A DNA stretch of 64,000 bases from positions 2,572,767 through 2,636,766 of the forward strand of contig NZ_CP076718.1 of assembly GCF_011682235.2 (NCBI RefSeq), given 5' to 3'. How positions within the stretch are numbered: the first letter of the stretch is position 1; every line of letters begins with the position of its first letter. The notes under the pieces are model-generated. The model had not been told where the DNA came from and ran no database searches. It saw nothing but the letters and a program-made list of their open reading frames with translations. A program made the translations under genes and the position numbers. Below, one piece after another: positions 4,357 through 23,933 of this stretch. Origin of the DNA: Rhodocaloribacter litoris (GTDB taxonomy: Bacteria; Bacteroidota; Rhodothermia; Rhodothermales; ISCAR-4553).

Positions 4357-5724
4357 ATGACCCCCCTGCGGATACGAGCCGTGCCGGCCGTATGGCTGCT
4401 GGCCCTGACCGTCTTCCCCGCCCGTGTGGCGGCCCAGGAAGCCGTCCCCGTCATCCTGCCGCTGCGGGAACAGGCAGCCGTGGTGGACCACTGGCTCGAG
4501 CGGCGGCTCGATACGGTGGTGCCGGCACTGATGCGCCGCGAGGGCGTGGACATGTGGATCCTCATCGCCCGCGAGTACAACGAGGACCCGGTCCTGCGCA
4601 CGATGCTGCCGGCCACCTGGCTCTCGGCCCGGCGGCGCACCATCCTGGTGTTCTTCGACCGGGGGCCGGCGGCGGGCGTCGAGCGGCTGGCCGTGGCCCG
4701 CTACGACGTCGGGCGGCTCTTCACGGGGGCGTGGGACCCGGCGGCCGAGCCCGACCAGTGGCGGCGCCTGGCGGCCCTCATCGCCGAGCGCGACCCTGCC
4801 ACCATCGCCCTGAACCGCTCCGCGACCTTCGCCCTGGCCGACGGCCTCACGGCCACCGAGTACGAGGCGTTCCGCGAAGCCCTGCCCGCCCGCTTCCACG
4901 ACCGCCTCGTCAGCGGCGAGCGGCTGGCCGTCGGGTGGCTGGAGACGCGCATCCCCGAGGAGATGGCCGTCTACCCGATGATCGTTCGCCTGGCCCACGC
5001 GATCATCGCCGAGGGCCTCTCCGAGCGGGCCATCCAGCCGGGCGTAACGACGACCGAGGACCTGGCATGGTGGTTCCGCGAGCGCGTCCGGTCGCTGGGG
5101 CTGACGGCCTGGTTCCACCCGTCGGTGGACGTGCAGCGGCCCGAGGGCGACGCCCGCGACGGCGACTTCTCCGCCCGCCCCGGCGTCACCGTCATCCGCC
5201 CCGGCGACCTGGTCCACGTCGACTTCGGCCTCACGTACCTGCGGCTGAACACGGACACGCAGCAGCACGCCTACGTCCTGCGCCCCGGCGAGACGGACGC
5301 GCCCGAAGGCCTGCGCCGGGCCCTCGCCGTGGGCAACCGCCTCCAGGATATCCTCACCGAGCAGTTCGTGGCCGGGCGGACGGGCAACGCGATCCTCCGG
5401 GCGGCGCTGGAGCGGGCCCGCGCCGAGGGCATCGAGGCCACCATCTACACGCACCCCATCGGCTACCACGGCCACGGCGCCGGCCCCACCATCGGGCTGT
5501 GGGACCGGCAGGAGGGCGTCCCCGGCCGGGGCGACTACCCGCTCTTCCCGCACACGGCCCACTCCATCGAGCTCAACGCCGCCGTCCCCGTGCCCGAGTG
5601 GGGCGGGCAGCAGGTGCGCATCATGCTCGAAGAGGACGCCTACTTCGACGGCACCACCACCCGCTACCTCGACGGCCGCCAGACCCGCCTCTGGCTCATC
5701 CCCCGCCCCGGCGCCAACGAGTGA
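4357..5724 (+). CDS. Exported M24-family metallopeptidase (Xaa-Pro aminopeptidase-like)
   Basis: Protein of 455 aa with a signal peptide (residues about 1-26, ending RVAAQ), so it acts in the periplasm or outside the cell. The C-terminal pita-bread domain carries M24 metal-ligand motifs: Asp in HVDFG, Asp in NTDTQQ, His in YHGHGAGP, Glu in HSIELN and a late Glu in IMLEEDAYF. These suggest a dinuclear metal aminopeptidase that trims X-Pro N-termini, although exported relatives are mostly uncharacterised. The N-terminal half is the creatinase-like domain. It follows the CCA enzyme gene by 66 bases and marks the last core gene before the AT-richer island. Confidence 0.85.
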   Translation: MTPLRIRAVPAVWLLALTVFPARVAAQEAVPVILPLREQAAVVDHWLERRLDTVVPALMRREGVDMWILIAREYNEDPVLRTMLPATWLSARRRTILVFFDRGPAAGVERLAVARYDVGRLFTGAWDPAAEPDQWRRLAALIAERDPATIALNRSATFALADGLTATEYEAFREALPARFHDRLVSGERLAVGWLETRIPEEMAVYPMIVRLAHAIIAEGLSERAIQPGVTTTEDLAWWFRERVRSLGLTAWFHPSVDVQRPEGDARDGDFSARPGVTVIRPGDLVHVDFGLTYLRLNTDTQQHAYVLRPGETDAPEGLRRALAVGNRLQDILTEQFVAGRTGNAILRAALERARAEGIEATIYTHPIGYHGHGAGPTIGLWDRQEGVPGRGDYPLFPHTAHSIELNAAVPVPEWGGQQVRIMLEEDAYFDGTTTRYLDGRQTRLWLIPRPGANE

Positions 5725-5865
5725 GGCGCCACGCGAAGGGAGGGGGGAGATACCGTCAGGGCGAAAACTGAACAACCCGGTTTGAGTTACCTTCCCTCAT
5801 TATTACCTTACACCGTCTCCGCGCACTGTATTTGCTGAATCCTGGATAATTCATGTCGAAATTGA

Positions 5866-6777
5866 ATGGCGACTACATTTTCTTTTTCAGGTCACGAAAC
5901 CTTCCCGTTACGGTTCAACTGGCTAAAAAAGGCCGCTGATGCCGTCAATCGGCGACCTACGATATTCAGTTCCGATGAAGCCATTGCGGAGTTTGGCGTC
6001 GGTAAAAACATGGTCCGCTCTATCCGGCACTGGGGCCTAGCGACGGGGGTGCTGGAGCCGGACCCCGATGCAGAGGACCGAACGGCTCTGCGCGTGTCCG
6101 ACTTCGGGATCTACTTGCTTGGCGACGATGGAGCGGATCCTTACTGCGAGGACACTGCGACACTGTGGCTACTACACTGGCTACTTTGCCGGTCGCCTGA
6201 ACGGGCCACGCTATGGCATTTCGTTTTCGGTCACTGGCGTGAGGGTGCGCTCGAGCTACGCAACCTGCAACCCGTCCTCGAGCGATGGCTGGCCGAGCGA
6301 GGTGGCACGATGCCATCGGCTTCGACATTACATCGCGACCTGCAGTGCCTTCAGAACACGTACATCGCGCCGCGTTCGAAGGGGATACACCTGGAGGATG
6401 TAGCGGGGTGCCCCCTGGCTTCGCTGGGTTTACTCTACGAAAACGGCGGCGTGATCTACCTGCGTGAAGGTCGGCAGCGTGGCCTACCGCCGGAGATCTT
6501 CGCGTATGCGGTGCTCGATTACTGGGACCAAACCTTTCCAGAGACAGAGACACTGTCGGCGCAGGAAGTGCTGTTTCGGCGAGCGAGTCCGGGGCAGGTG
6601 TTCCTGCTGAGCGAGGAGCAAGCTTTTGACTTGGTCAATCGGATCGAGACGTTTGATGAGGTCCCGTTCCGCTACGACAACACAGCCGGCCTTCAACAGT
6701 TTTACCGTACGCCGGGCGTAACGCCGCAGGCTATGCTCGATCGCTACTATGCCCGTGTCCTGCATACGGCATCATGA
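5866..6777 (+). CDS. DUF4007-family protein, first gene of the defence-like island
   Basis: Protein of 303 aa starting MATTFSFSGHETFPLR, typical of DUF4007: an FSGHETFPLR-like opening, then a winged-helix-like stretch (FGVGKNMVRSIRHWG) and a long alpha-helical C-terminal part. An in-frame TGA directly precedes the ATG at 5866, which fixes the start. DUF4007 genes are known to sit beside PAPS-reductase/DndC-like genes and large ATPases in defence islands, and a DNA-binding or regulatory role has been suggested. The gene is 13 bases upstream of the ATPase gene, so the two are probably co-transcribed. Base composition is visibly less GC-rich than the preceding core genes. No enzymatic motif is visible. 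Confidence 0.82.
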   Translation: MATTFSFSGHETFPLRFNWLKKAADAVNRRPTIFSSDEAIAEFGVGKNMVRSIRHWGLATGVLEPDPDAEDRTALRVSDFGIYLLGDDGADPYCEDTATLWLLHWLLCRSPERATLWHFVFGHWREGALELRNLQPVLERWLAERGGTMPSASTLHRDLQCLQNTYIAPRSKGIHLEDVAGCPLASLGLLYENGGVIYLREGRQRGLPPEIFAYAVLDYWDQTFPETETLSAQEVLFRRASPGQVFLLSEEQAFDLVNRIETFDEVPFRYDNTAGLQQFYRTPGVTPQAMLDRYYARVLHTAS

Positions 6778-6790
6778 AGATCTGAATCCT

Positions 6791-9700
6791 ATGGTTGTTA
6801 TAAGGGGATCGTTTCAACGCAGCATCAACCTGGTCCGTGATTTCTACGGTGCTCAAAACCTTGATGGCTACATCGTCACGGTAAAAGCCCGCGAGTTGGT
6901 TGACCGCATGGCCGACGCGCTTGCTGCGCCTGTGGCTGGCCGGGCTTGGTCCATCACAGGACCGTACGGTGGCGGGAAAAGCGCCTTTGCCCTATTTACA
7001 GCTCATCTTCTGCGAGGCAATGATGCAGCATTTGCCAAACTCAAGGAAGCCGATGCGGGGCTTGCTGAGAAGCTACGCGCTGCGCGTGTGGGCGCGTTTT
7101 GCCCGGTGCTGGTCGTGGGGTCGCGAGAGTCGCTGGGAGCCGCCCTTTTGCGTGGGCTGGCGCAGGGTGTCTCGGCTTTTGTGGCCACCTTTGCTCGGCA
7201 TCGAGGCCGACCTAGCGAAGAGGTGAAAACGTGCCGTACGGTGCTTCAAAAGGTCGCTCGGGAAGCGGAAGCTGCCGCCTTGCAGGACGTGGGTGATGAC
7301 GTTGTGGTCGATCTGTACCAGCGGGCGGCGGCAGCGGTGCATAAAGCTACCGGCGGGGGGGTGCTCCTGATCGTGGACGAGCTAGGTAAACTGCTTGAGT
7401 ATGCAGCCCTGTACCCCGAGCGAAGCGACCTCTACGTGCTGCAGCGTCTAGCTGAACGAGCTTCGCGGACGGGCGACACGCCAGAGACGGCAGCTCCGCT
7501 TCTCGTTTTCACCATCTTGCATCAGGCCTTTGAGCGTTATGCCGGTCGTCTGAGCACGGCACAGCGTGACGAGTGGCGCAAAGTACAAGGTCGTTTTGAG
7601 GACTTTGCCTTCGTTGAACCGGTCGGTGAGATGCTGCGCCTGCTGGCGCATGCCGTCCAGGTCGAGGACCCGGCTATGCTACCCGGCGACGCCCCGGCCG
7701 TAATTGACCGGTTACTCGGCGCGGCTACTCTGCAACCGAGCCTGGACCGAGAGCAGGTACGGGAGCATCTAGGCGAGGCGCTCCCGCTGCATCCGGCTGT
7801 CAGCATGATTGTAGGTCCGCTGTTTCGGCGCTTGGCTCAGAACGAACGCTCGCTCTTTGCTTTCCTCGCCTCGGGCGAGCCGGGGAGCTTCCTGGATGTG
7901 CTGGCGCATTCGATGCCTAATGCTGCCAAAGAAGACCAGCTGCGCGATGCCCCGCAACGGGTGCCCCTCTATCGCCTCGATCACCTCTACGACTACCTCA
8001 TGGGGGCCGTCGGCGCAGCGCTTTTCAACGACCGCGTCGGCAAATTATGGGCCGAAACCGAGGCGGCCCTCTCCCGGCTGAAAGACCCTCAAGAGCTTGC
8101 GGTGCGCCTGCTCAAGCAGATCGCGCTTCTCAGCTTTGCCGGTCCACTGGCTGGCCTACCTCCTACGGCGGAGATCCTCCGTGCCACCGCCGATGCGCCT
8201 TCCGAGGCGGTGGATCGCACGCTGGAGAAGCTCAAGGCGGAGCGGCTCGTGACGTATCGCTCGTTCAAAGACGAGTACCACATCTGGCAGGGCAGCGATT
8301 TTGATCTCGAGGAGGCTCTCCGGAAGGCCCGCGAGCACGTCCCGGCCCGCACGCCCCTGGCCAAGCTGCTAGCCGACGTGCTACCGCCGACGCCGCTCAT
8401 AGCCCGCCGCCACTCATACCGCACCGGCACGACCCGCGTCTTCGAGGTCCTGTACGCCTCCGACGAAGCCTGGCCGTCACTCATACAGCAGCCGCACAAG
8501 CGGGCCGATGGGCGCATCATCTACGTGCTACCCGAGCACGACGGCGACACAGAGCACCTGATGGCCTCCCTGCAAGAAGCCGTCGATGATCCGCTGACGC
8601 TGGTGGCCGTACCTGATGGCGTGGCGGCACTGCGCGAGGTGGTGCGCGAGCTGGCATGCCTCGAATGGGTACGCAAGTATGATGATGCACTGGACGGCGA
8701 CGACGTGGCACGCCGCGAGGTCGACCAACAGCTTGCTGATCTGAGCGGCCTCGTCGAGCAGCGTCTCTCCACCTTGCTCGTCGCCGACGCTGAGGGCCGA
8801 AACCCTTGCACCTGGATCTACCAGGGACAGGTGTTCCGACTGCAAAACGAGCGTGCGTTACAGGATAAGCTCAGTCAGATATGCGACGAGATCTTTTCCC
8901 GGACACCGGAGATCTGGAATGAGTTGCTCAACCGCCACCAGCCCTCCTCGAGCGCTGTCAAAGGCCTGAAGCTCTTGCTGGAAGCGATGATCGAGCGAGG
9001 CGACCTCTACCGGCTCGGCATTGAGAAGCATCCGGCAGAGTATGGGATGTACGCCTCGATCCTCCAGGCCACGGGCATGCACCGCCCGGTATCCGATAAT
9101 TCGGAGCGCTGGCACTTTGCACGACCTGATCCGGATGAACGACCCGGCTGCGCGGCGGTTTGGGATGCCATCACGAATATATTGCGAGCGGCCAAAGGAC
9201 AGCGTGTGTCGGTGCGGGAACTCTACGAGGTTCTCCGACAGCCTCCCTATGGGGTGCGTGAAGGGCTGATCCCTGTCTTCCTGTTCGCGGTATACAAGGC
9301 GGCTGAAGACGAGATCGCCGTGTATGAGAACGGCACGTTTGTCTCCAGGATCGATTTTCAGACTATCGAGCGCCTGCTGAAAAGCCCGGACAAGTTCGAG
9401 ATGCAGTGGGTGGAGATCAAAGGGGCGCGGGAAGAGGTACTTCGTCGGCTAGCTCCGCTCGTAGGGTTGACAGCAGCAGAGCAAAAGCCGCTGCCCTTTG
9501 TGCTTCGTCTGCTTGGTCGTGTCCACGGTCTACCGCCCTACGTACGCAAGACGGCGACGCTCTCGCAGACAGCCCTGAATGTGCGTGAGGCCCTGCATCA
9601 TGCCGTCGAACCAACGACCTTGCTCTTTTCGGATCTGCCACACGCCTGCGGTGTCCGCTCGTTCCTGGTCGATGACGACGCCCGGTTGGACGATGTGGAG

Positions 9701-10345
9701 ACCTTCGCAGAGCGCCTACAGGAAGCGCTGCGCGAACTAGGTGGGGCTTATGATGGGTTGTTGGCAGACCTTCAGACGCAGATAGCCCACGTCTTCCGGC
9801 TTCACGCGAAATCGGCGGATGAACGCCGTCATGAGCTTGCGGAGCGAGCACGGCCGTTGCTTCCCCATGCTACCGATACGCGCCTGAAGGCCTTCCTCGT
9901 CCGGGCCACCGACGAGATTCTCGATACGCAGGGCTGGTATGAGTCGCTGGCTGCGCTTCTGGCAAAACGGCCGCCGGTACAATGGAGCGACGAGGATCAT
10001 GAGATCTTCGGCACTGCGCTTCGCGAAGTCGCTCGTCGGTTCCACACGCTTGAACCTATTGCCTTCGAGGCTGATCAGGAAGCGCCTGAACCGGAAGCAC
10101 CGGTAGCGGATACGCGGATTCTCAAGCGGGTGCGCCTTAGCGTCACCGTACAGTACGAGGATGAGCACGAACACGTGATCAGTATCCATCCAGAGGATAA
10201 CGACATCATCACGGCTGTTTATCGGCGTCTTCGCGAAGCCATCGATGCAGAAGACGTAGTGCTGGAAACAAAAATTGCCGCCCTGGCTCAATTAACCAAC
10301 GAACTGCTCTCCGAACGAGAAAAAACTTATAAAGACCATGAGTAA
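6791..10345 (+). CDS. Large BrxC/PglY-like P-loop ATPase
   Basis: Protein of 1184 aa. Near the N-terminus is a Walker A motif GPYGGGKSA (about residues 57-65), and near residue 195 a Walker B-like LLIVDELGKLLEY. Size, early P-loop and the GxYGxGKS form resemble the BrxC/PglY ATPases of BREX and Pgl systems and the large ATPases found with DUF4007. The ATG at 6791 was chosen over the one at 6749, because the latter overlaps the DUF4007 gene and adds only a non-conserved lead. Its 3' end overlaps the PP-loop gene by 8 bases (ATGAGTAA), a sign of translational coupling. The C-terminal half is helical with no recognised domain. It probably drives DNA remodelling or assembly of the modification complex; this is an inference from context. 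Confidence 0.82.
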   Translation: MVVIRGSFQRSINLVRDFYGAQNLDGYIVTVKARELVDRMADALAAPVAGRAWSITGPYGGGKSAFALFTAHLLRGNDAAFAKLKEADAGLAEKLRAARVGAFCPVLVVGSRESLGAALLRGLAQGVSAFVATFARHRGRPSEEVKTCRTVLQKVAREAEAAALQDVGDDVVVDLYQRAAAAVHKATGGGVLLIVDELGKLLEYAALYPERSDLYVLQRLAERASRTGDTPETAAPLLVFTILHQAFERYAGRLSTAQRDEWRKVQGRFEDFAFVEPVGEMLRLLAHAVQVEDPAMLPGDAPAVIDRLLGAATLQPSLDREQVREHLGEALPLHPAVSMIVGPLFRRLAQNERSLFAFLASGEPGSFLDVLAHSMPNAAKEDQLRDAPQRVPLYRLDHLYDYLMGAVGAALFNDRVGKLWAETEAALSRLKDPQELAVRLLKQIALLSFAGPLAGLPPTAEILRATADAPSEAVDRTLEKLKAERLVTYRSFKDEYHIWQGSDFDLEEALRKAREHVPARTPLAKLLADVLPPTPLIARRHSYRTGTTRVFEVLYASDEAWPSLIQQPHKRADGRIIYVLPEHDGDTEHLMASLQEAVDDPLTLVAVPDGVAALREVVRELACLEWVRKYDDALDGDDVARREVDQQLADLSGLVEQRLSTLLVADAEGRNPCTWIYQGQVFRLQNERALQDKLSQICDEIFSRTPEIWNELLNRHQPSSSAVKGLKLLLEAMIERGDLYRLGIEKHPAEYGMYASILQATGMHRPVSDNSERWHFARPDPDERPGCAAVWDAITNILRAAKGQRVSVRELYEVLRQPPYGVREGLIPVFLFAVYKAAEDEIAVYENGTFVSRIDFQTIERLLKSPDKFEMQWVEIKGAREEVLRRLAPLVGLTAAEQKPLPFVLRLLGRVHGLPPYVRKTATLSQTALNVREALHHAVEPTTLLFSDLPHACGVRSFLVDDDARLDDVETFAERLQEALRELGGAYDGLLADLQTQIAHVFRLHAKSADERRHELAERARPLLPHATDTRLKAFLVRATDEILDTQGWYESLAALLAKRPPVQWSDEDHEIFGTALREVARRFHTLEPIAFEADQEAPEPEAPVADTRILKRVRLSVTVQYEDEHEHVISIHPEDNDIITAVYRRLREAIDAEDVVLETKIAALAQLTNELLSEREKTYKDHE

Positions 10346-11273
10346 AGTCCGGCACATCGTCGCCTTCAGCGGGGGAAAGGATAGTAGTGCGCTCGCCATC
10401 TATTTGCACGACCCCGAGCGTTGGCGCCGGGCGCTCGGCAAGCAGGGACTTCCTCCGCGCCCGCCTTTGGAAGAGGCCGAGTATGTATTCTGTGACACCG
10501 GTACCGAGCTGGCCGAGACGTACGACTACCTTGACCGGCTTGAAGCCTACCTCGGGCGGCCTATCCAGCGGCTCCGTGCCAACGTGCCACCGAGCAAGCC
10601 CGGCGAGCCGGACAAGACACCCTTCGATCACTACCTCGAACTCTACGGCGGCTTTCTACCTAGCCCGAACATGCGGTGGTGCACCCGGATGCTGAAGTTG
10701 AAGCCGTTCGAAGACTACATCGGCGACGACCCGGTGATCAGTTACGTCGGCATCCGAGCGGATGAAGGCGAATGGCGCGTCGATCCAGAGACACAGCGCA
10801 AGTATTTCCAGCATCGCAAAGGGTACATCAGCACGAAGCCCAACATCAAAACCGTTTTTCCTTTCATTGAAGATGGCCTCGTAAAAGCCGATATCTACCG
10901 TATACTCGACGATAGCGGCGTTGGCCGCCCGGACTATTATACATGGCGTTCACGCAGCGGCTGCTACTTCTGCTTTTTCCAGCGCAAGAGCGAGTGGGTC
11001 GGCCTGCTTGAGCACCACCCGGACCTGTACAAGCGAGCGATGGAGTATGAAAAGATCGACCCCGAGACGGGAGAACGTTTTACCTGGTCGGATGCCGAGT
11101 CGCTGGCTGAGCTGGCCCGGCCTGAGCGCATCGCCGAGATCAAGCGCCGGACCAAGGAGCGCGAAGAACGCCTCCGGAAAAGCCGTGCCAACGTGACGCT
11201 CATGGAGCAGTTTTTCGACGAGGTGCGCGACCTGGAAGACAGCGGCGCGGGGTGCAATATTTGCCATCTATAG
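10338..11273 (+). CDS. PAPS-reductase/DndC-like PP-loop enzyme
   Basis: Protein of 311 aa with the PP-loop SGGKDSSA at residues 11-18, which binds ATP to adenylylate a substrate in PAPS reductases, DndC and BrxP-type proteins. Cysteines occur in WCTRMLKLKP (about residue 114), SGCYFCFF (about residues 207-210) and at the extreme end (CNICHL). Such cysteines could hold an Fe-S cluster or carry sulfur, as in DndC. The start ATG lies inside the end of the ATPase gene. In this context a role in sulfur-based DNA modification (phosphorothioation or a related reaction) is more likely than assimilatory sulfate reduction, since no other sulfate-assimilation gene is nearby. Confidence 0.85.
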   Translation: MSKVRHIVAFSGGKDSSALAIYLHDPERWRRALGKQGLPPRPPLEEAEYVFCDTGTELAETYDYLDRLEAYLGRPIQRLRANVPPSKPGEPDKTPFDHYLELYGGFLPSPNMRWCTRMLKLKPFEDYIGDDPVISYVGIRADEGEWRVDPETQRKYFQHRKGYISTKPNIKTVFPFIEDGLVKADIYRILDDSGVGRPDYYTWRSRSGCYFCFFQRKSEWVGLLEHHPDLYKRAMEYEKIDPETGERFTWSDAESLAELARPERIAEIKRRTKEREERLRKSRANVTLMEQFFDEVRDLEDSGAGCNICHL

Positions 11274-11313
11274 GCGTGATGTTCTCCACCTGCGCAGTTC
11301 AATTGAACACATC

Positions 11314-11385
11314 ATGAAGGCTAGCGAATTTTTACAGGCCCTGCAAACGTTCTTTCTCGACTTTATTGGAGCTATTATTCCTGGC
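11314..11385 (+). pseudogene. N-terminal remnant of a gene cut off by the IS3 element
   Basis: An ATG at 11314 opens a frame of 24 codons that runs exactly to the left end of the IS and then meets a stop 2 codons inside it. The peptide starts MKASEFLQALQTFFLDF and continues into a hydrophobic stretch (IGAIIPG), like the start of a membrane-anchored protein. It begins 40 bases after the PP-loop gene on the same strand, so it was probably the fourth gene of the operon. The matching C-terminal remnant lies on the other side of the IS in a different phase. The family is not recognised. Confidence 0.55.
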
Positions 11386-11442
11386 TGGAGTTAACCCGGT
11401 TTGGTGGACTATCTTCCACTTACGAACAACGAAGAGGTCCCC

Positions 11443-11757
11443 ATGCCACGAACACGTCCCGCGTATCCTACCGAGTTCCGCCAGCGACTCGTCGAACTGG
11501 CTCAGGCCGGTCGTAGCCCGCGTGAACTCGCTGAAGAATTTGAACCCTCCGAACAAACCATCCGCACCTGGATCAAACAAGCTGAGCGCGACGAGGGTAC
11601 CCGCACCGACGGGCTCACCTCGAGAGAGCGCGAGGAGCTGCGCCAACTCCGCAAGGAGAACCGTCGTCTCCAGCAGGAGCGCGACATCCTGGCAAAGGCC
11701 GCGGCCTGGTTTGCTCAGGAGACGAACGTGATACCGAAGCGATCTTCACGTTCATAG
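11443..11757 (+). CDS. IS3-family transposase OrfA
   Basis: Protein of 104 aa starting MPRTRPAYPTEFRQRLVELA. It has the helix-turn-helix of IS3 OrfA proteins (SPRELAEEFEPSEQTIRTW), followed by a leucine-zipper-like region (LRQLRKENRRLQQERDIL) used for dimerisation. A good ribosome-binding sequence (GAAGAGG) sits 6 bases before the ATG. The frame of orfB is -1 relative to orfA, so full transposase is probably made by -1 ribosomal frameshifting before the orfA stop. The orfB frame continues upstream of its first ATG through residues reading AIFTFIDAHQAEFP, which matches the usual fusion point. Confidence 0.88.
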   Translation: MPRTRPAYPTEFRQRLVELAQAGRSPRELAEEFEPSEQTIRTWIKQAERDEGTRTDGLTSREREELRQLRKENRRLQQERDILAKAAAWFAQETNVIPKRSSRS

Positions 11758-11789
11758 ACGCCCACCAGGCCGAATTCCCCATCCGCGTC

Positions 11790-12617
11790 ATGTGTGCAGT
11801 CCTGGCGGTCTCCACCAGCGGCTACTACGCCTGGCGCAACCGAGTCCCTTCCCAGCGAGCCCGAGACGACGCGATGCTGACCGAGCAGATCCATGCCATC
11901 CACGCGTGGTCCCGCGGCACCTATGGCGCCCCCCGTATCCATGCCGAACTCAAGGATCAAGGCGTGCATGTGGGGTGCAAGCGTGTAGCTCGTTTGATGC
12001 GAGCAGCCGGCTTGCACGGCATTAGCCGCCGCAAAGGACCCACCACGACGCGGCGGAGGGAGGGAGCTAGACCCGCGCCGGATCTCGTCGAGCGGGATTT
12101 CACCGCGACCGAGCCGAACCAGTTGTGGGTGGCCGACATCACCTACGTGCCGACGGCGGCCGGCTTCCTGTACCTGGCTGTTGTGCTCGACGCGTTCAGT
12201 CGCCGTATCGTGGGCTGGTCGATGGCCAATCACTTGAGGACGGAGCTGGTGGTCGCCGCGTTGGAGATGGCGCTTGAGCAGCGGAAGCCGGAGGCGGTCA
12301 TCCATCACTCCGACCAGGGGTCGCAGTACACCTCGATTGCCTTCGGGGTGCACTGTCGGGAAGCGGGTGTGGAGCCGTCAATGGGCTCGGTCGGTGACTG
12401 CTACGATAACGCCATGTGCGAGAGCTTCTTCGCTACGCTTGAATGCGAACTCATCGACCGTGAGGCCTTCGCGACGCGGGCCGAGGCGCGGATGGCGATC
12501 TTCGACTACATTGAAGGGTGGTACAACCCGCATCGGCGGCACTCGGCCCTGGAGTATCAGTCGCCGGTGAGCTACGAAAGAAGACACCAATCACAGGTCG
12601 CAGCCGAAAGCTGCTGA
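11790..12617 (+). CDS. IS3-family transposase OrfB (catalytic)
   Basis: Protein of 275 aa with the DDE integrase core: the first Asp in WVADITYVP, the second in HHSDQGSQY and the Glu in MCESFFATLECEL. An HTH_21-like segment (YGAPRIHAEL) precedes the core. The typical IS3 ending YNPHRRHSALEYQSPV is present. No in-frame stop or deletion is visible, so the element may still be active. OrfB probably starts as a frameshift product of orfA, and the ATG at 11790 is only the first methionine of the frame. Confidence 0.9.
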   Translation: MCAVLAVSTSGYYAWRNRVPSQRARDDAMLTEQIHAIHAWSRGTYGAPRIHAELKDQGVHVGCKRVARLMRAAGLHGISRRKGPTTTRRREGARPAPDLVERDFTATEPNQLWVADITYVPTAAGFLYLAVVLDAFSRRIVGWSMANHLRTELVVAALEMALEQRKPEAVIHHSDQGSQYTSIAFGVHCREAGVEPSMGSVGDCYDNAMCESFFATLECELIDREAFATRAEARMAIFDYIEGWYNPHRRHSALEYQSPVSYERRHQSQVAAESC

Positions 12618-12645
12618 CTGTCCACTAAAGCGGGGTAACTCCACT

Positions 12646-12825
12646 CGCGCGCTAGGCAAACATATAGTACTTGTTGAAGAGCACCCTTCAGAGCAGCGAC
12701 GACGCTATTTTGGAATGCCGAGGGCTTGCGCCGATGTGACATTCTCCTCACTGAATGAAGGAGTGCTATATTTGCGATCCCTCTCAGTAGCTGCTCCAAC
12801 ACAGGAGAAGGATATGCTCGCCTGA
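12646..12825 (+). pseudogene. C-terminal remnant of the IS3-interrupted gene
   Basis: Immediately right of the IS an open frame of 59 codons runs without a start codon to a TGA at 12823-12825. It reads like real protein (for example GKHIVLVEEHPSEQ, then RYFGMP, and ending EKDMLA). It lies in the same direction as the genes on both sides and ends 56 bases before the next gene. Its phase does not match the 24-codon remnant left of the IS, so middle sequence has been lost or rearranged. The family is unknown. This suggests that the island has lost one component. Confidence 0.5.
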
Positions 12826-12881
12826 TTGAACAGCCGCTTTCTACTCTAAACGCAATACCCCAGATTGCATTGGTGAATCCG

Positions 12882-15323
12882 ATGATCCAGGAGGAAGCTC
12901 TATTCCACGCCCTCTACCAAGCGTCAACGGAAAGCGAGGTAGATGAAGTCATCCAGCAGCATCCGGAGGTCTTCAAGCAGGAAAACTGGTATCCGTACGG
13001 CCAGAATGAGAGCAACTTCGGTGTGGTCGAGAACCAACAGGCCTCTCCGATTCCTGCACTGGTCGAAAAGGTGATCAATTCCATCGATGCCATTCTGATG
13101 AAACGCTGCCTTGAAGAAGGCATCGATCCGAAGTCACCTCAAGCGCCTCGTTCGGTCGAAGACGCCGTAAAACGTTTCTTCCCTGATGCGAAGAATTGGG
13201 ATCTTCCTTCGTTCAGAGCACAACAGGCCGAGGCCATACAAATTCTGGCAGACGGCCCTCGCCTCAATACATCCCTTGTCATTTACGACGACGGGGAGGG
13301 GCAACACCCCGAAGATTTCGAAGACACCTTCCTTTCCTTGCTAAGGGGCAATAAGAACGAGATCCACTTCGTCCAAGGGAAATACAATATGGGCGGAGCC
13401 GGTGCTATTGTGTTCTGCGGGAAGAAGCGTTACCAACTGATCGGCTCGAAACGATTCGATGGGACAGGTTTGTTCGGCTTCACGCTCATGCGCAAGCACC
13501 CGCTGAGTGACGAGGAACGCAAGAGCAAGAAGAACACTTGGTATGAATATCTGAAGATTGACGGCAAGATCCCATCGTTCCACATCGATACGATGGATCT
13601 CGGTCTTTACAACCGGCTGTTCAAGACCGGGACGGTCATCAAACTATATTCCTATGACCTGCCGGAAGGTGCTCGTTCGGTCATCTCTCGGGACCTGAAC
13701 CAGAGTATCAACGAATACCTGTTCGAACCTGCACTGCCGATCTACACCATTGATAAAGAAGAGCGCTATCCCAATGACCGCGCGCTTCAACGGCACCTCT
13801 ATGGGTTGAAGCGCCGCCTTGAAGAGGAAGGCAGCAAGTATGTTGAGACGTACTTCTCGGAGACATATTCCGATGAGACCATCGGAACCGTGAAGATCAC
13901 CTGCTACGTGTTCAAACCACGAATCGAAGGCAAAAATGCCAAGGAGAGCCGGGAAACCATCCAGCGGGAGTTTTTCAAGAACAACATGTCCGTGTTGTTC
14001 TCCATCAACGGGCAGGTGCACGGGCACTACACATCGGAATTCATCACGCGGTCGTTGAAATTCTCTCTACTGAAGGGCTATTTGATCATCCACGTGGACT
14101 GCACCCACGTGAACCTCGAGTTCCGTAACGAACTGTTTATGGCTTCCCGGGATCGCCTCAAGGCGGGGGAAGAATCCCGGACCCTGCGTCATGTCATTTC
14201 GGACGTTTTGTCCAAAAGCAAGCTCAAGGATATCTACAAGCAACGCCGCCAGGCCATCACCGTCGAGGGTGAGGATACAAAAGATCTACTCAAGAGCTTC
14301 ACGGATAACCTGCCTCTGAAGGATGATCTCCTGTCTCTGCTGAACCAGACGTTCAAGCTAGATCAGAAGACGAAACGGGAGCCGCAACCCAAGCAGCACA
14401 AACCGTCACAGAACAATGGGCAGCAGCCACCGCCATTCAATCCTCAGCGGTTTCCGTCTTTTCTCAAAATCGAGGTCAAGGCTCAGGATAAGGATGGGTT
14501 GCCAATGGTAAAGGTCCCTCTGGGCGGTGAGCGCACCGCACGCTTCTCGACCGACGTGGAGGATCACTACTTCGACCGTGTGGAGGAACCGGGCGACTTA
14601 CAGATTGCCATTCTGGACTACCGACCTAATGAGAGGGAGGGAGGGAGTCAGCCTGGCATTCCGGATAAGGTCGAATACTTCTTCAACGTGGCGCGCTCGA
14701 GCCCTAATCAGGGAATCATTAGAATCGCCTTCAATCCGACCGATAAGGTACAGGTAGGCGATGCGGTAAAAATCAAGGCCACGCTCATGGGCGCTGGCCA
14801 GAAATTCGAGGAAATCTTCTGGATAAAGATCTCGGAGCCGGAAAAGAAACAGAACAAGCAAAAGGCGAAACCGTCGAAAGAAGATGACAGAATCGGCCTA
14901 CCTGCGCTGCATCTTGTTTACGAAGAGAAGAGGGACGGATACCTCGACTGGGAGGCACTCGAAGCCCAGGGGATTTCGATGAACCATGACACCGTGATGC
15001 ATCCGAGCGTCGAAGGCGATAAGCTCGATGCCATCTATGTTAACATGGATAGTCGGGTGCTCAAGGACTACAAGTCCAAGTTGAAAACGGCAGAGCAGCT
15101 TGATCTGGCGGACAAGAGGTATATATCTTCTGTTTACTTCCATACCCTCTTCCTCTACATGATCACCCGCAATCGCAAATACACCATCTACCAGCAGCAA
15201 GGTGGACATGATGAGGAGCCGGTTGACCTCACCGACTATCTAAAAGACATCTTCGAAAGCTATTACTCAGCGTTCCTGCTCAACTTCGAAATGAGCGAGC
15301 TGATTGCTAGCTTGGAAGACTAA
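12882..15323 (+). CDS. GHKL (Hsp90/MORC-like) ATPase 1
   Basis: Protein of 813 aa from the ATG at 12882 (TTG at 12870 and GTG at 12873 are alternatives). The N-terminal half carries the Bergerat-fold boxes: ALVEKVINSIDAI (N box), YDDGEGQHPEDF (G1) and GKYNMGGAGAIVF (G2, the lid). GHKL ATPases such as Hsp90, MutL and MORC dimerise on ATP binding. The middle part is rich in charged residues, with a Gln/Pro/Lys linker around residues 500-535 and a distinct C-terminal domain of about 270 aa that is not recognised. It is followed after 16 bases by a second GHKL gene, so the pair is probably co-expressed. The region is clearly less GC-rich than the core genome, consistent with horizontal acquisition. 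Confidence 0.8.
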   Translation: MIQEEALFHALYQASTESEVDEVIQQHPEVFKQENWYPYGQNESNFGVVENQQASPIPALVEKVINSIDAILMKRCLEEGIDPKSPQAPRSVEDAVKRFFPDAKNWDLPSFRAQQAEAIQILADGPRLNTSLVIYDDGEGQHPEDFEDTFLSLLRGNKNEIHFVQGKYNMGGAGAIVFCGKKRYQLIGSKRFDGTGLFGFTLMRKHPLSDEERKSKKNTWYEYLKIDGKIPSFHIDTMDLGLYNRLFKTGTVIKLYSYDLPEGARSVISRDLNQSINEYLFEPALPIYTIDKEERYPNDRALQRHLYGLKRRLEEEGSKYVETYFSETYSDETIGTVKITCYVFKPRIEGKNAKESRETIQREFFKNNMSVLFSINGQVHGHYTSEFITRSLKFSLLKGYLIIHVDCTHVNLEFRNELFMASRDRLKAGEESRTLRHVISDVLSKSKLKDIYKQRRQAITVEGEDTKDLLKSFTDNLPLKDDLLSLLNQTFKLDQKTKREPQPKQHKPSQNNGQQPPPFNPQRFPSFLKIEVKAQDKDGLPMVKVPLGGERTARFSTDVEDHYFDRVEEPGDLQIAILDYRPNEREGGSQPGIPDKVEYFFNVARSSPNQGIIRIAFNPTDKVQVGDAVKIKATLMGAGQKFEEIFWIKISEPEKKQNKQKAKPSKEDDRIGLPALHLVYEEKRDGYLDWEALEAQGISMNHDTVMHPSVEGDKLDAIYVNMDSRVLKDYKSKLKTAEQLDLADKRYISSVYFHTLFLYMITRNRKYTIYQQQGGHDEEPVDLTDYLKDIFESYYSAFLLNFEMSELIASLED

Positions 15324-15339
15324 ACATCTATCTACTCCT

Positions 15340-17109
15340 ATGAGCGAAGTTGCTACAATGAGCGAAATTAACCTTGATTGGAATCCGGGCCGTGTCTTGT
15401 TCGGCCTCAGCAGAATTGGTTATACGCCTGCCTCCGCGCTGTGTGACTTGGTTGATAATGCCGTTCGTGCCAATGCTTCAGCGGTTCACATTCTTATCCA
15501 CAAAGAGCGCGAGGACCTGAGCGACAGGAGCAAAAACAATGTCCGTGAATATCTCATCATCGACGACGGGGATGGCATGGACGAGGCCGGGCTAAAAAAT
15601 GCGCTAATGCTTGGTTCGTCTGATCTAGAATACGAAAATCATGCATTGTGCAAGTTTGGCCTCGGCCTCAAATCCGCTTCCCTCTCACAGGGCGACGAGT
15701 TGCATGTCATTTCGTCTACAGGTGATGGCAACTTCCTGAAGTACATCCTCTCTTTGCCTGCCATTCAAAATAGAGGACAATATTTCGCTACCAAAGCTCA
15801 CCTCAGTGAAGAAGACCGAGCACTCATTGACGAGTACCTGACTGATGGGCGGGGTACGATTATCCGCATCGGCCAGGTTCGTAAGAATAATCACCCCAGC
15901 GTTCGTAGCACCGTTGAAGAGCTTGAGTACAAGATCGGCGTTATCTACTTTTACTTCATGAAAGAAGATGGCTTAAAGATTTATGTGGACGGCAAGGAGA
16001 TTTCACCCTTTGACGTACTCTTCATAGATGAAGCCAATGCCAACGGTAATTTGGACGAAAATGAATGGGATGGGCGTTCAACGAGATGGATTCAGCGTCC
16101 CAAAGATATATCGATAGATGCGGACTACGAACTAAAAGCTAGGATCGAAGTCACCCAACTACCTTATCCGCCTATTTTTGACTTAGACGGTGCCGGCGAA
16201 CAGGCAAAAATCCGCGATAAGTATCGCATTGGAGCCGGCAACTATGGTTTCTATGTCTATCGAAACAAGCGTCTGATTTCTTGGGCAGAACGTTTTGGTG
16301 GCATTATTCCCCAAGACCAAGACTATTACTCTTTCAGAGGCCGCATCCTGATCGACGACTCGGCGGACGACGCTTTCAACATTGATGTTAAGAAAGCGAC
16401 TATCACGCTTTCTGACGACGCCGAACGAACGATTAGTGACTACTCGGCAAACTACAAAAGCAAGAGCAAAAAAGCTTGGAATCGCGCTAACAATCTGCGC
16501 AAAGAGCGCCAGGGCGATGATCCTAATCTAGTTGCTAACCAAATCGTAGAAGAGTACACCCCTCCGCCTAACTTACCGGGCGAAGGCATTCCCTCAACAG
16601 AGGAAATCCAGAAGCAGCGAGAACGAGAGACGGAACTCCAAGAGGAGATGCGCGACAAACTGCGCAAGGAAACCGCCCGCAAGAAACAGGAGAAAGAAAA
16701 TCAACCCATTTCGGAGGAAGAGCTAACCGAAGAGGACCTAGAAGCGGTGCTCCGGGAAAACACGCATCCAGCAGCCCACAAAATCTTCCAAGTCAGTACT
16801 ATCCTAGACAATTTGCTTTGGGAGCCCTACCATGATGCTGAACACGAACACTGCGTGCGCATCAATCGAGGACACCGATTTGGAAGGTTGATATATGATG
16901 ACAACCATAGTAATACGGACCTGCAGGTGATTTTCGAGCTGATGCTACTTCAGCTTGCTATTGCCGAAGTATATGCGCAAAAGAATCTAACAAAATATAA
17001 ACGAGAGAATGTGAATAACATCGTTACCGAGTTCAGGCGGTACACTTCCGAATTTCTAGCTGACATGTGCCGTAAACTCGATCATAAGCTACCTAAGTCT
17101 AGCAGCTAG
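15340..17109 (+). CDS. GHKL (MORC-like) ATPase 2
   Basis: Protein of 589 aa. The Bergerat-fold boxes are ALCDLVDNAVRANAS (N box), IIDDGDGMDEAG (G1) and KFGLGLKSASLSQG (G2), close to the ATPase domains of defence-associated MORC/Hsp90-like proteins. A highly charged, probably coiled-coil stretch (about residues 420-475, rich in Glu/Lys/Arg) precedes a C-terminal helical domain of about 110 aa. Two ATGs are available (15340 and 15358); the first is used because it leaves only a 16-base gap to the previous gene. It is not a duplicate of the upstream ATPase: the two share only the fold motifs. A clamp-like partnership with ATPase 1 is an inference. Confidence 0.82.
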   Translation: MSEVATMSEINLDWNPGRVLFGLSRIGYTPASALCDLVDNAVRANASAVHILIHKEREDLSDRSKNNVREYLIIDDGDGMDEAGLKNALMLGSSDLEYENHALCKFGLGLKSASLSQGDELHVISSTGDGNFLKYILSLPAIQNRGQYFATKAHLSEEDRALIDEYLTDGRGTIIRIGQVRKNNHPSVRSTVEELEYKIGVIYFYFMKEDGLKIYVDGKEISPFDVLFIDEANANGNLDENEWDGRSTRWIQRPKDISIDADYELKARIEVTQLPYPPIFDLDGAGEQAKIRDKYRIGAGNYGFYVYRNKRLISWAERFGGIIPQDQDYYSFRGRILIDDSADDAFNIDVKKATITLSDDAERTISDYSANYKSKSKKAWNRANNLRKERQGDDPNLVANQIVEEYTPPPNLPGEGIPSTEEIQKQRERETELQEEMRDKLRKETARKKQEKENQPISEEELTEEDLEAVLRENTHPAAHKIFQVSTILDNLLWEPYHDAEHEHCVRINRGHRFGRLIYDDNHSNTDLQVIFELMLLQLAIAEVYAQKNLTKYKRENVNNIVTEFRRYTSEFLADMCRKLDHKLPKSSS

Positions 17110-17119
17110 CCATTGTATC

Positions 17120-17587
17120 ATGCCTTCTGTAATTGGTGCCTGCTTCGATGGAAGATTGGCATACATTTATATTTGGCTCTCGAAGAAGCATCGTGTTGTT
17201 TACGTCGGCCAGACCAACGGTACGGAGGGTACGCTTGGGAGGGCCGCACAGCATGTTACGATAAGAGGTACTTTCCGTCAACGCTTTGAGGAAGTAGTAG
17301 GACTCCAGCTCGAAGCGATAGACGATCTGATTCTTCTGAGCTTTCCGCTGCCCTTTGAGCCAGAATTCACCGGCATTGAATCTTCGTTTCGTGAAGGCGT
17401 TGAGTTTCTCGTTCAGCAAGGCCTGCTTGACGCCCGCAGCAATCTTACGCCCATGTATCGGGTCATATCAACCGTTCGGCCTACGGCACAAGCCTCTCTG
17501 AAAAGAGTACAAACTTGTGCTGATGACATTGTGAAGCAGTTCGTGGTGGCCTATGCAACCCTCACCCCGCTGCCGCCTATTTACTGA
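17120..17587 (+). CDS. GIY-YIG nuclease-like protein
   Basis: Protein of 155 aa, the size of a minimal GIY-YIG domain with a short extension. The N-terminal strand pair reads YIYIWLSKKHRVVYVGQT, matching the GIY and YIG half-motifs with substitutions. A conserved-type Arg follows in TLGRAAQH, and a Glu in GIESSFREGVEF is at the expected place for the metal-binding residue. It starts 10 bases after the second GHKL ATPase gene and is the last gene of the same-strand run, so it could be the DNA-cleaving partner of the ATPases. No extra DNA-binding domain is visible. Confidence 0.7.
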   Translation: MPSVIGACFDGRLAYIYIWLSKKHRVVYVGQTNGTEGTLGRAAQHVTIRGTFRQRFEEVVGLQLEAIDDLILLSFPLPFEPEFTGIESSFREGVEFLVQQGLLDARSNLTPMYRVISTVRPTAQASLKRVQTCADDIVKQFVVAYATLTPLPPIY

Positions 17588-17800: not shown

Positions 17801-18910
17801 GAGGGTCGGACATAAATGTTAAGTTGAGCAAAAACAGAGCCGCACCGAGCGTGTGCCCCGTACGGCTCCTGCTGTACCTTGAGGGTATCGAGCCTCTCAA
17901 GTTCAACAGCAAGAGCCATGATACACCCCGACGCGCTTCTGTTCAAACTCATCGCGCTCATTGACAAACTGCCCCAGCCCAAGACTTCACCCCGAAGAGG
18001 ACGCCCGGTGGTTTATCCCGAGACGCTCTTTCTTAAGGCGCTCGTGATCATGACGCTGCGCCACCTCTATCAGGTTGGCGCGTTCCTCGCCGTGCTCGAT
18101 CAACCGGATATGGCTTCTGTCAAGGCCGTCTTGCTCGATGAGCAGGGACGCTTTCCCTGTCGGCGAACCTGGGAACGACGACTGGCCAACCTTCCCGAAT
18201 CCCTGCCCGCACGGATCGGGCTGATCGGACGCATGCTCGTCGAGATGATCAAGCCGTGGGCCAACTCGGGACGCGCTGTGGCGCTCGACTCGACCATTTT
18301 GCACGCTTCTGGCGGGGTGTGGCACAAAAAACACCGTGATGCAGGCCTTGTGCCCCACAGCCGGATTGACACCGAGGCGGCCTGGACGCAGAGCGGCTGG
18401 CACGGCTGGGTCTACGGCTGGAAGCTGCATCTGGCCGTGACCGTGGCCTCGGTCTGGATTCCGGTGGCGGCTCGGCTGCGCCCGGCCAACGAGGCCGACA
18501 ATGTCGTGGCCGAGGATCTGATCCCGGAGCTTCCCTTCGAGGTGCGCTATGTGCTGGGCGACAAGCATTACAACGCACCCAACGTCACGGCAGCGTGTCG
18601 GTTGCGCAACTTGTTTGCCGTGACGACGAAGCGGGGCGCCTACCCGCACACGGACGACGGGGTCGAAGTCCGGCGCATCTTTCACAAGTTGCGCTCGGTT
18701 GCCAATGAGAACTTCAATGAACAGTTCAAGGCCATCTTCAATGGGCACGACCGGGTACCCACGAAAGGCCTGGTCGCGACGCAGCGGTATGCGCTCGGGG
18801 CGGTGCTAGTCTACCAGTTGGTGCTCTGGCACCGCTATGAGCAAGGCTTGCCTTTGCGTCAGGGGCTAAAGGCTTATATCAAAGCCGCTTAACATTTATT
18901 TCCGACCCTC
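17801..18910 (+). mobile_element. DDE insertion sequence, IS4/IS5-like (1110 bp)
   Basis: The ends are 23-bp inverted repeats, GAGGGTCGGACATAAATG... at 17801-17823 and its complement at 18888-18910, differing at one position. The element holds a single transposase gene whose stop codon lies inside the right repeat. Both flanks begin with AT next to the element, which could be a 2-bp target duplication, but no longer duplication is visible. It lies just downstream of the defence-like island and forms its right boundary. Confidence 0.85.
17918..18892 (+). CDS. DDE transposase (IS4/IS5-like)
   Basis: Protein of 324 aa from the ATG at 17918. N-terminal features (RRGRPVVYPETLFLKALVIM) are followed by a DDE-type core: AVALDSTILHASGG (first Asp), YVLGDKHYN (second Asp) and NENFNEQFKAIF near the end for the Glu. 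The frame is complete between the two terminal repeats. The open frame extends 39 bases upstream of this ATG, but that part lies in the element's lead region and is not needed. The exact IS group cannot be settled by eye. Confidence 0.82.
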   Translation: MIHPDALLFKLIALIDKLPQPKTSPRRGRPVVYPETLFLKALVIMTLRHLYQVGAFLAVLDQPDMASVKAVLLDEQGRFPCRRTWERRLANLPESLPARIGLIGRMLVEMIKPWANSGRAVALDSTILHASGGVWHKKHRDAGLVPHSRIDTEAAWTQSGWHGWVYGWKLHLAVTVASVWIPVAARLRPANEADNVVAEDLIPELPFEVRYVLGDKHYNAPNVTAACRLRNLFAVTTKRGAYPHTDDGVEVRRIFHKLRSVANENFNEQFKAIFNGHDRVPTKGLVATQRYALGAVLVYQLVLWHRYEQGLPLRQGLKAYIKAA

Positions 18911-22702: not shown

Positions 22703-23933
22703 CAGGGCGAGCGCATTCTAAAATAGGCTAGTGTTAATGGCCTGGGATGTCGTAAGCTGTGCCGGTTCGTCAGCCGTTCCAGTTTGCTCCCCTCCGTTCA
22801 TGTCTGAGACCTGCTTTATTCGCTATTTTGACCACCTTGAGGACCCCCGACGCGATCAGGGCAAACGCCACCGGCTCGAGCACGTGCTCGTGATCGCCCT
22901 CTGTGCCGTTGTTGCCGGTGCTGAGGGCTGGGATGACATCGCCACGTTCGCCCAGGCCAAAGTCTCCTGGCTGACCCAACGGCTCGACCTCAAACATGGC
23001 ACGCCCTCGGGCGACACCTTCCGCCGCGTCCTGGCCGCCATCTGCCCGGAGGCCTTCGCCCGCGGCTTCGTACGCTGGGTGGAGGCGCTGGCCCAACAGA
23101 CGGCCGGCGAGGTCATTGCCATCGATGGCAAGACGCTGCGCCGCAGTTACGACAAAGACGACCCGAAGGCCGCCCTGCACATGATCTCGGCCTGGGCGTG
23201 TGAGCAGCATCTGGTGCTGGCGCAAGAGAAGGTCTCGGCCAAGAGCAATGAGATTACCGCGATTCCGGCGCTTCTGGAGGTGTTGGACCTCGAAGGCTGC
23301 ATTGTGACGCTCGATGCGATGGGCACGCAGACCGAGATTGCCGAAGCGATCTGCGCGCAGGGGGCGGACTACGTGTTGGCCCTGAAGGGCAACCAGGGCC
23401 TGCTCCACCGTGAGGTGCGGGCCTACTTCGAGCAGGGGCGCACGCGGCACTGGCGGGCGATGCCGGTCGCCTACGCGGAGCGCTGTGACCTGGGGCACGG
23501 GCGCAAGGAAGTGCGTCGGCTGTGGATCTCGACCGATGTGGCCTGGGTGCCCAAGGCCGAGGCGTGGCGTGACCTGAACAGCCTCGTGATGGTCGAACAC
23601 GAGCGCCACACGCAGCAGGGCGTGAGTCTGGAGCGCCGCTTCTACATCAGCAGCCTCGCGACCACAGCGGAGCAGATGCTGGATATCATCCGGAGTCACT
23701 GGGGCATTGAGAATCAGCTGCACTGGGTGCTCGATGTGGTGTTTCGGGAGGATGAGAGCCGTATTCGGCGCGATCACGGGGGGCAGAACATGGCGGTGGT
23801 GCGGCAGCTAGCGCTCAACCTGTTGCGCAAGGACGAAACGAAGCGGTTGAGTCTGCGCATGAAGCGAAAACGGGCCGGTTGGGACGATGCCTTCCTGGCG
23901 CAGATCGTCGGAATTTAGAATGCGCTCGCCCTG
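22703..23933 (+). mobile_element. ISAs1-family insertion sequence (1231 bp) with 10-bp target duplication
   Basis: The ends are perfect 20-bp inverted repeats (CAGGGCGAGCGCATTCTAAA at 22703-22722 and its complement at 23914-23933). The sequence CAGGGAGCCT is duplicated directly on both sides (22693-22702 and 23934-23943). The clean ends and perfect duplication point to a recent insertion. It interrupts the protease gene exactly at a codon boundary. Confidence 0.95.
22800..23918 (+). CDS. ISAs1-family transposase
   Basis: Protein of 372 aa from the ATG at 22800, starting MSETCFIRYFDHLEDPRR, typical of ISAs1 transposases (DUF4338/DDE_Tnp_1 type). Visible features are HVLVIALCAVVAGAEGWDDI-like N-terminal sequence, the first catalytic Asp in VIAIDGKTLRRSYD, the second in VTLDAMGTQTEIA and YVLALKGNQ, and the C-terminal SHWGIENQLHWVLDV with the Glu. 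The gene is complete and its stop lies at the edge of the right inverted repeat, so the element is probably functional. The open frame before 22800 is part of the element's lead and not coding. Confidence 0.92.
   Translation: MSETCFIRYFDHLEDPRRDQGKRHRLEHVLVIALCAVVAGAEGWDDIATFAQAKVSWLTQRLDLKHGTPSGDTFRRVLAAICPEAFARGFVRWVEALAQQTAGEVIAIDGKTLRRSYDKDDPKAALHMISAWACEQHLVLAQEKVSAKSNEITAIPALLEVLDLEGCIVTLDAMGTQTEIAEAICAQGADYVLALKGNQGLLHREVRAYFEQGRTRHWRAMPVAYAERCDLGHGRKEVRRLWISTDVAWVPKAEAWRDLNSLVMVEHERHTQQGVSLERRFYISSLATTAEQMLDIIRSHWGIENQLHWVLDVVFREDESRIRRDHGGQNMAVVRQLALNLLRKDETKRLSLRMKRKRAGWDDAFLAQIVGI

Follow-up and report, generated by a model that had tools for sequence, protein, structure and literature searches.

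We analyzed a 64,000-nucleotide stretch of Rhodocaloribacter litoris DNA (contig NZ_CP076718.1, positions 2,572,767 to 2,636,766; hereafter the window), in which three genes for two GHKL ATPases and a GIY-YIG nuclease-like protein follow the genes of an Ssp system, which modifies DNA by phosphorothioation (PT). The three open reading frames (ORFs) run in the same direction (+ strand) and are intact. The first, GHKL1 (12882..15323), codes for 813 amino acids if it starts at ATG 12882 and for 817 if it starts at TTG 12870; its relatives are annotated as 'hypothetical protein'. The second, GHKL2 (15340..17109), lies in a frame open from 15304, with ATG 15340 (~589 amino acids) or ATG 15358 (~583 amino acids) as the likelier starts, and the third (GIY; 17120..17587, 155 amino acids) begins 10 bases past the GHKL2 stop, as noted in the original prediction for this region. 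Upstream of the trio region, on the same strand and adjacent to one another, are sspB (5866..6777; PADLOC SspB, 275 bits, E 1.6e-82), sspC (6749..10345; PADLOC SspC, E 0, 1114 bits; Walker A GPYGGGKS) and sspD (10338..11273; PADLOC SspD, E 1.7e-103; PF01507 above cut-off). They code for the triple winged-helix DNA-nicking subunit of the single-stranded DNA phosphorothioation system, which we take to be of the DUF4007 family as in the original prediction and in related annotated loci, an ATPase, and a PAPS-reductase-like sulfur-transfer enzyme, respectively. Ssp systems place PT in host DNA at 5'-CCA-3'. No gene for the cysteine desulfurase SspA is adjacent, and none of the matches listed for the window was to Aminotran_5, the cysteine desulfurase type, of which 21 matches were found elsewhere in the genome; since IscS is able to replace SspA (PMC8092258), this arrangement is permitted.

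Both ATPases carry the N, G1 and G2 boxes and the Bergerat fold of the GHKL superfamily and are of the MORC/Hsp90 type, and they share little else, as had been proposed: BLASTP revealed no significant similarity between them (best E 3.9). GHKL2 passes the Pfam HATPase_c_3 cut-off of 25 with 80.7 bits; PDB sequence searches with it returned only marginal MORC4/MutL matches. Its G1 box reads DDGDG and its N box CDLVDN, with Asp in place of the usual Glu; the Asp was rejected as a special feature, being common to most related paraMORCs. GHKL1 scored 22.1 bits, just under the same cut-off. Its boxes (N, EKVINSID; G1, DDGEG; G2, GKYNMGGAG) show little or no variation among 17 relatives, and its AlphaFold model (predicted local distance difference test score, pLDDT, 72) matched Hsp90 (E 4e-9) and MORC3 (E 4e-7) in Foldseek.

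The small protein has a genuine GIY-YIG active site. The catalytic Tyr, Tyr-x-Gly, Arg, His and Glu of the superfamily are all present, and the whole constellation (Y17, Y28-V-G30, T32, R41, H45 and E95) is invariant across seven distant homologues, including some with an identity of only 21–24%. Scores against Pfam PF01541 (cut-off 22.6) were 17.4 for the window protein, 22.4, just below, for the relative in locus L129, and 23.8 for the orthologue in L083, which passes (L and G numbers denote the loci and genomes of our survey). The AlphaFold2 model (pLDDT 82.9; predicted template modelling score 0.83) resembles a GIY-YIG domain, and the misfolding that would have told against the original prediction did not appear; its best structural overlap was with the catalytic domain of I-TevI (template modelling score 0.53 by target length; E 2.0, not significant). 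At the same gene position, L055 (12705-13700) codes for a GIY-YIG domain with a C-terminal stretch that weakly matches HEPN_Swt1, below the Pfam cut-off, and that protein is possibly a DNase-RNase fusion.

A search for the Walker A pattern G....GK[ST] found none in GHKL1, GHKL2 or GIY, which bears on whether the trio could be SspFGH, a restriction module already described, or a diverged version of that module. Vibrio anguillarum FF-93 carries its three-gene SspFGH cassette beside sspBCD, just as three genes lie downstream of sspBCD here; however, a Walker A motif is found in SspF, and the C-terminus of SspH is FtsK/SpoIIIE-like (PMC8092258), whereas the trio consists of GHKL, GHKL and GIY-YIG proteins. 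SspFGH for its part has no reported GHKL or GIY-YIG component; the likeness is that of a multi-gene effector beside sspBCD. Given the missing Walker A motif and the different domain content, judged against the published description of the FF-93 cassette, identity with SspFGH was rejected as highly improbable.

The GHKL2-GIY unit was found in 14 loci. Thirteen lie beside sspBCD (the window, L027, L032, L055, L073, L076, L077, L083, L084 and L171–L174), and one, in genome G355 (L129), lies directly downstream of dndCDE, so that the genes do co-occur elsewhere, contrary to the second outcome named as refuting the original prediction. In L129, which was found with the GHKL2 query, dndC, dndD, dndE (Pfam E 1.8e-27), GHKL2 and GIY are consecutive on one strand, and G355 contained no GHKL1 match. 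With GHKL2 as the query, every GIY-partnered GHKL2 was located beside PT genes, both in the phylum sample (the window and G355) and in the family sample (G746, G774, G787, G947 and G355); around the remaining GHKL2 relatives, drawn from 394 phylum genomes and 274 L055-class genomes, no neighbourhood that was read contained a GIY partner. The GIY-partnered GHKL2s group as one clade (support 100/100) that is distinct both from the remaining paraMORCs and from a second clade of Ssp-linked GHKLs. Counterparts of the window's genes occur in four phyla (here and below, taxa as labelled in the records), a recurrence beyond chance. In nine loci (L073, L076, L077, L083, L084 and L171–L174), GHKL2 is near-identical across several genera of Flavobacteriaceae and the island order GHKL1-sspBCD-GHKL2-GIY-sspA is kept, which appears to reflect recent horizontal spread of the island. 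A phage-borne origin was rejected, since no GHKL1 was found in viral contigs, where the GHKL2 relatives were all distant and had neither GIY nor ssp genes with them.

The order GHKL1-GHKL2-GIY was seen only in the window and L032. Elsewhere GHKL1 stands apart, in most cases GHKL2 is missing, and the distribution of GHKL1 is independent of that of GHKL2-GIY; together with the absence of a GHKL1 match from G355, this led us to reject an obligate pair of ATPases. The idea of a trio working as a unit through a paired clamp plus nuclease thus survived in part: the genes are conserved, co-occur and stand in a defence context, and a clamp plus nuclease is still a sensible mechanism, but there are really two units, GHKL1 and GHKL2-GIY, and 'paired' is weakened since GHKL1 is usually without GHKL2 and the Dnd locus is without GHKL1.

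A scan of about 85,000 species genomes revealed 238 relatives of GHKL1, of which the best 80 were examined; the records span about ten phyla. In 72 of these 80 loci, ssp genes were present on the same contig at a median distance of 2.2 kb (maximum, 6.4 kb); the remaining eight loci are truncated by the end of their contig on one or both sides, and in six of them sspD was found elsewhere in the genome. The nearest plasmid relatives (Hymenobacter, Devosia and Ensifer) all adjoin sspBCD. Among the 394 genomes of the window's phylum, SspD was present in 21, and a full-length GHKL1 lay beside it in 4 of the 21. These counts tie GHKL1 to Ssp and show that it is not universal in Ssp. One further GHKL1 among these phylum genomes is a decaying pseudogene with five in-frame stops beside sspB/sspC in L109 (9375-10916; genome G267). 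Relatives outside the clade belong to DNA-methyltransferase systems (L108; L136, beside an N6/N4 methylase; L007) or have no such link. The L108 locus (5018-15208), which is free of ssp genes, carries on one strand genes for a C5 methyltransferase, a MutH-type nuclease, an unknown protein, the GHKL1 relative, a calcineurin-type phosphoesterase and a second GHKL.

The original prediction had suggested that the trio might be a standalone defence module, separable from the sulfur genes and merely their neighbour in a defence island. The layout of L108 is loosely parallel and free of Ssp, and in the window an IS3-type insertion sequence (11386..12643, + strand) parts the trio from sspD. However, the L108 layout goes with DNA modification too, in the form of a methylation system; the GHKL1 of this clade was next to sspBCD at every locus whose flanks reach far enough (72 of 72); GHKL2-GIY was never met away from ssp or dnd genes in the surveys; and the two units are distributed independently of each other. 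We therefore consider a standalone module quite improbable, and the idea that the trio is separable from the sulfur genes was not supported. The insertion sequence contains two transposase ORFs (11401-11757 and 11790-12617) and ends in 39-nucleotide inverted repeats that are 74% complementary; no target duplication was visible when one was looked for, and the assignment to the IS3 family comes from the ORF layout. Transposase-like ORFs are also present downstream (17879-18892 and 22731-23918), and the Ssp/GHKL region is thus hemmed in by insertion sequences.

Comparison of the genes beside sspBCD-GHKL1 revealed several families: SspE, DUF262 with SIR2, DUF262 with a Ser/Thr kinase, a double-GHKL protein with a partner of 630–680 amino acids, a set of three families (F14-F23-F28), a DndB-like protein and GHKL2-GIY. 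In L062 a full SspE occupies the slot beside GHKL1 (PADLOC E 3e-220), and family F35 likewise in L039, L051 and L082. When SspE, the DUF262 modules, double-GHKL, GHKL2-GIY, F14-F23-F28, F19 and F43 were counted as classes and DndB was left aside, exactly one effector class was present in 58 of the 60 loci with a recognised class. Two loci had two classes, against 13.9 expected under random assortment, and none of 20,000 draws gave a number as low; GHKL2-GIY thus alternates almost exclusively with known and other candidate effectors. Since SspE is a demonstrated effector and the classes alternate, the simplest reading is that GHKL2-GIY does the job of SspE.

An alternative is that the trio tunes or repairs the PT modification, for example as a MutL-like repair clamp with a nicking enzyme that makes or mends nicks for SspB/SspD, and is not a restriction effector. 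The presence of GHKL1 regardless of the type of effector is as expected of a factor on the modification side, and nicking is the activity described for SspB itself (PMC8092258). Against this, GHKL2-GIY alternates with SspE and the other candidates, GIY-YIG nucleases are more usual in restriction, and the Ssp systems of E. coli 3234/A and Vibrio modify DNA without GHKL2-GIY (PMC8092258). This alternative therefore appears unlikely.

Several of the other classes were observed in some detail. A short DUF262 protein with GmrSD_N only stands beside sspBCD with a SIR2 protein in 11 loci (e.g. L002, L040 and L050) and with a Ser/Thr protein kinase in another 11 (e.g. L010, L019 and L065); to judge from their domains, these pairs look like SspE split from its nuclease half and joined to alternative killers. 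Double-GHKL proteins of ~790 amino acids (HATPase_c_3 and HATPase_c, annotated 'sensor histidine kinase') adjoin sspBCD with a partner of ~640–680 amino acids of unknown family in L003, L004, L011, L014, L015, L021, L112, L113 and L123, and a related form has two other partners in L036, L049, L058, L070 and L127. A second Ssp-linked GHKL cassette lies between or after sspD in L114–L119 and L176. In L119 and L176, Pfam matches identify a superfamily 2 helicase (ResIII/DEAD, ~550 amino acids), a MORC-like GHKL (~630 amino acids) and a PLD/HKD-type protein (~310 amino acids); L115 carries the PLD part, and the other loci of L114–L119 have genes of similar size. The GHKLs tested from this cassette fall into a single clade (100/100). 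The cassette is similar to MORC operons of the methylation type, yet it adjoins sspBCD.

On the evidence of homology, the conserved active site, linkage to PT genes of two kinds, monophyly and the near-exclusive alternation of effectors, the reading that we favor and consider probable is that the trio belongs to the Ssp defence locus starting at 5866, with GHKL2-GIY as its candidate restriction effector, an alternative to SspE and the other modules, and GHKL1 as an accessory ATPase. Several points weigh against it. Foldseek against the PDB gave no statistically significant match for the GIY model, and no GIY-YIG chain turned up when PDB sequences were searched with a GIY profile. Because nine of the 14 GHKL2-GIY loci are the near-identical Flavobacteriaceae copies, there are about six independent lineages; a single Dnd-linked case was found; and kinship among loci inflates the contrast in exclusivity. 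The insertion sequence between sspBCD and the trio makes co-transcription uncertain here, and the methyltransferase systems of the outside-clade relatives suggest that the role of GHKL1 may not be specific to PT.

Among described systems, SspABCD-SspE is alike in sharing sspBCD, in having one restriction effector per locus and in the position of SspE beside GHKL1 in related loci; in contrast, the window has a MORC-like ATPase with a separate GIY-YIG protein in place of the GmrSD_N/C (DUF262 plus HNH-type) SspE, and an additional GHKL1, and no match to a GmrSD_N/DUF262 plus GmrSD_C protein was found among the window proteins scanned. GIY-YIG (URI) nucleases have already been noted near Dnd genes (Rakesh et al. 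2024, PMC10853773), but that work includes neither GHKL/MORC ATPases nor an Ssp survey for them, whereas here a single GHKL clade accompanies the GIY-YIG protein in Ssp and Dnd loci alike. The prokaryotic MORC/paraMORC proteins of restriction-modification systems (Iyer et al. 2008, PMC2292703) belong to the same HATPase_c_3/paraMORC radiation as GHKL2 and likewise combine GHKL with DNA modification and nucleases, but they occur with methyltransferases, SFII helicases and other nucleases, and no mention of PT (Dnd, PAPS) or GIY/URI was found there. VcSduA, a GHKL-Shedu fusion, is a demonstrated anti-phage protein with GHKL and nuclease parts, but its nuclease is of the PD-(D/E)xK type within one chain, with no PT genes mentioned (PMC12137116). 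In MzaABCDE, the GHKL domain of MzaB is coupled to defence; this system was rejected, since only the GHKL domain matches MzaB (NCBIfam, 90 bits vs a cut-off of 850). No published account of GHKL proteins with phosphorothioation was found in the open-licence papers searched, with preprints outside the scope, and a description elsewhere is possible.

From these comparisons we infer nuclease activity, gating by PT, complex formation and phage defence. Together with a cysteine desulfurase whose gene lies elsewhere in the genome, SspB, SspC and SspD would place sulfur in the backbone of host DNA. A GHKL2 dimer would close on DNA in the manner of MutL, MORC or Hsp90, and only on DNA judged foreign by its PT state would ATP-driven closure allow the GIY-YIG protein to nick. 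The role of PT differs by effector: it protects with SspFGH and DndFGH and activates with SspE. The occurrence of GHKL2-GIY beside Dnd, apparently without GHKL1 in G355, suggests that the unit is able to sense PT or unmodified DNA on its own. GHKL1 appears to be an accessory ATPase in its own right that a large number of Ssp systems share whatever the effector; it may read PT, or couple the modification complex to the effector, and its most likely role is to connect the effector with the modification complex or with PT status. More tentatively, and with a little less than even confidence, we propose that GHKL1 could be a so far undescribed shared component of a large Ssp branch, a MutL/Hsp90-like ATPase that would read PT-marked DNA and license the effector in the neighbouring slot, be it SspE, DUF262-SIR2, DUF262-kinase, double-GHKL or GHKL2-GIY-YIG.

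SspFGH and SspE are each found on only about 7% of 2,678 sspBCD clusters (PMC8092258), which leaves most Ssp systems with no assigned effector. Our analysis names one candidate, GHKL2-GIY-YIG, beside both Ssp and Dnd modification genes, which looks like a so far undescribed arm of PT-based (sulfur-DNA) defence, and it exposes a GHKL ATPase, GHKL1, as a companion of Ssp with many different effectors. If the favored reading is true, control of restriction by the PT mark could be tested with a defined set of two or three proteins. If GHKL1 does act as a licensing switch, PT defence would be built in modules, with one switch serving interchangeable killers, and GHKL2-GIY would be an effector able to move between Ssp and Dnd.

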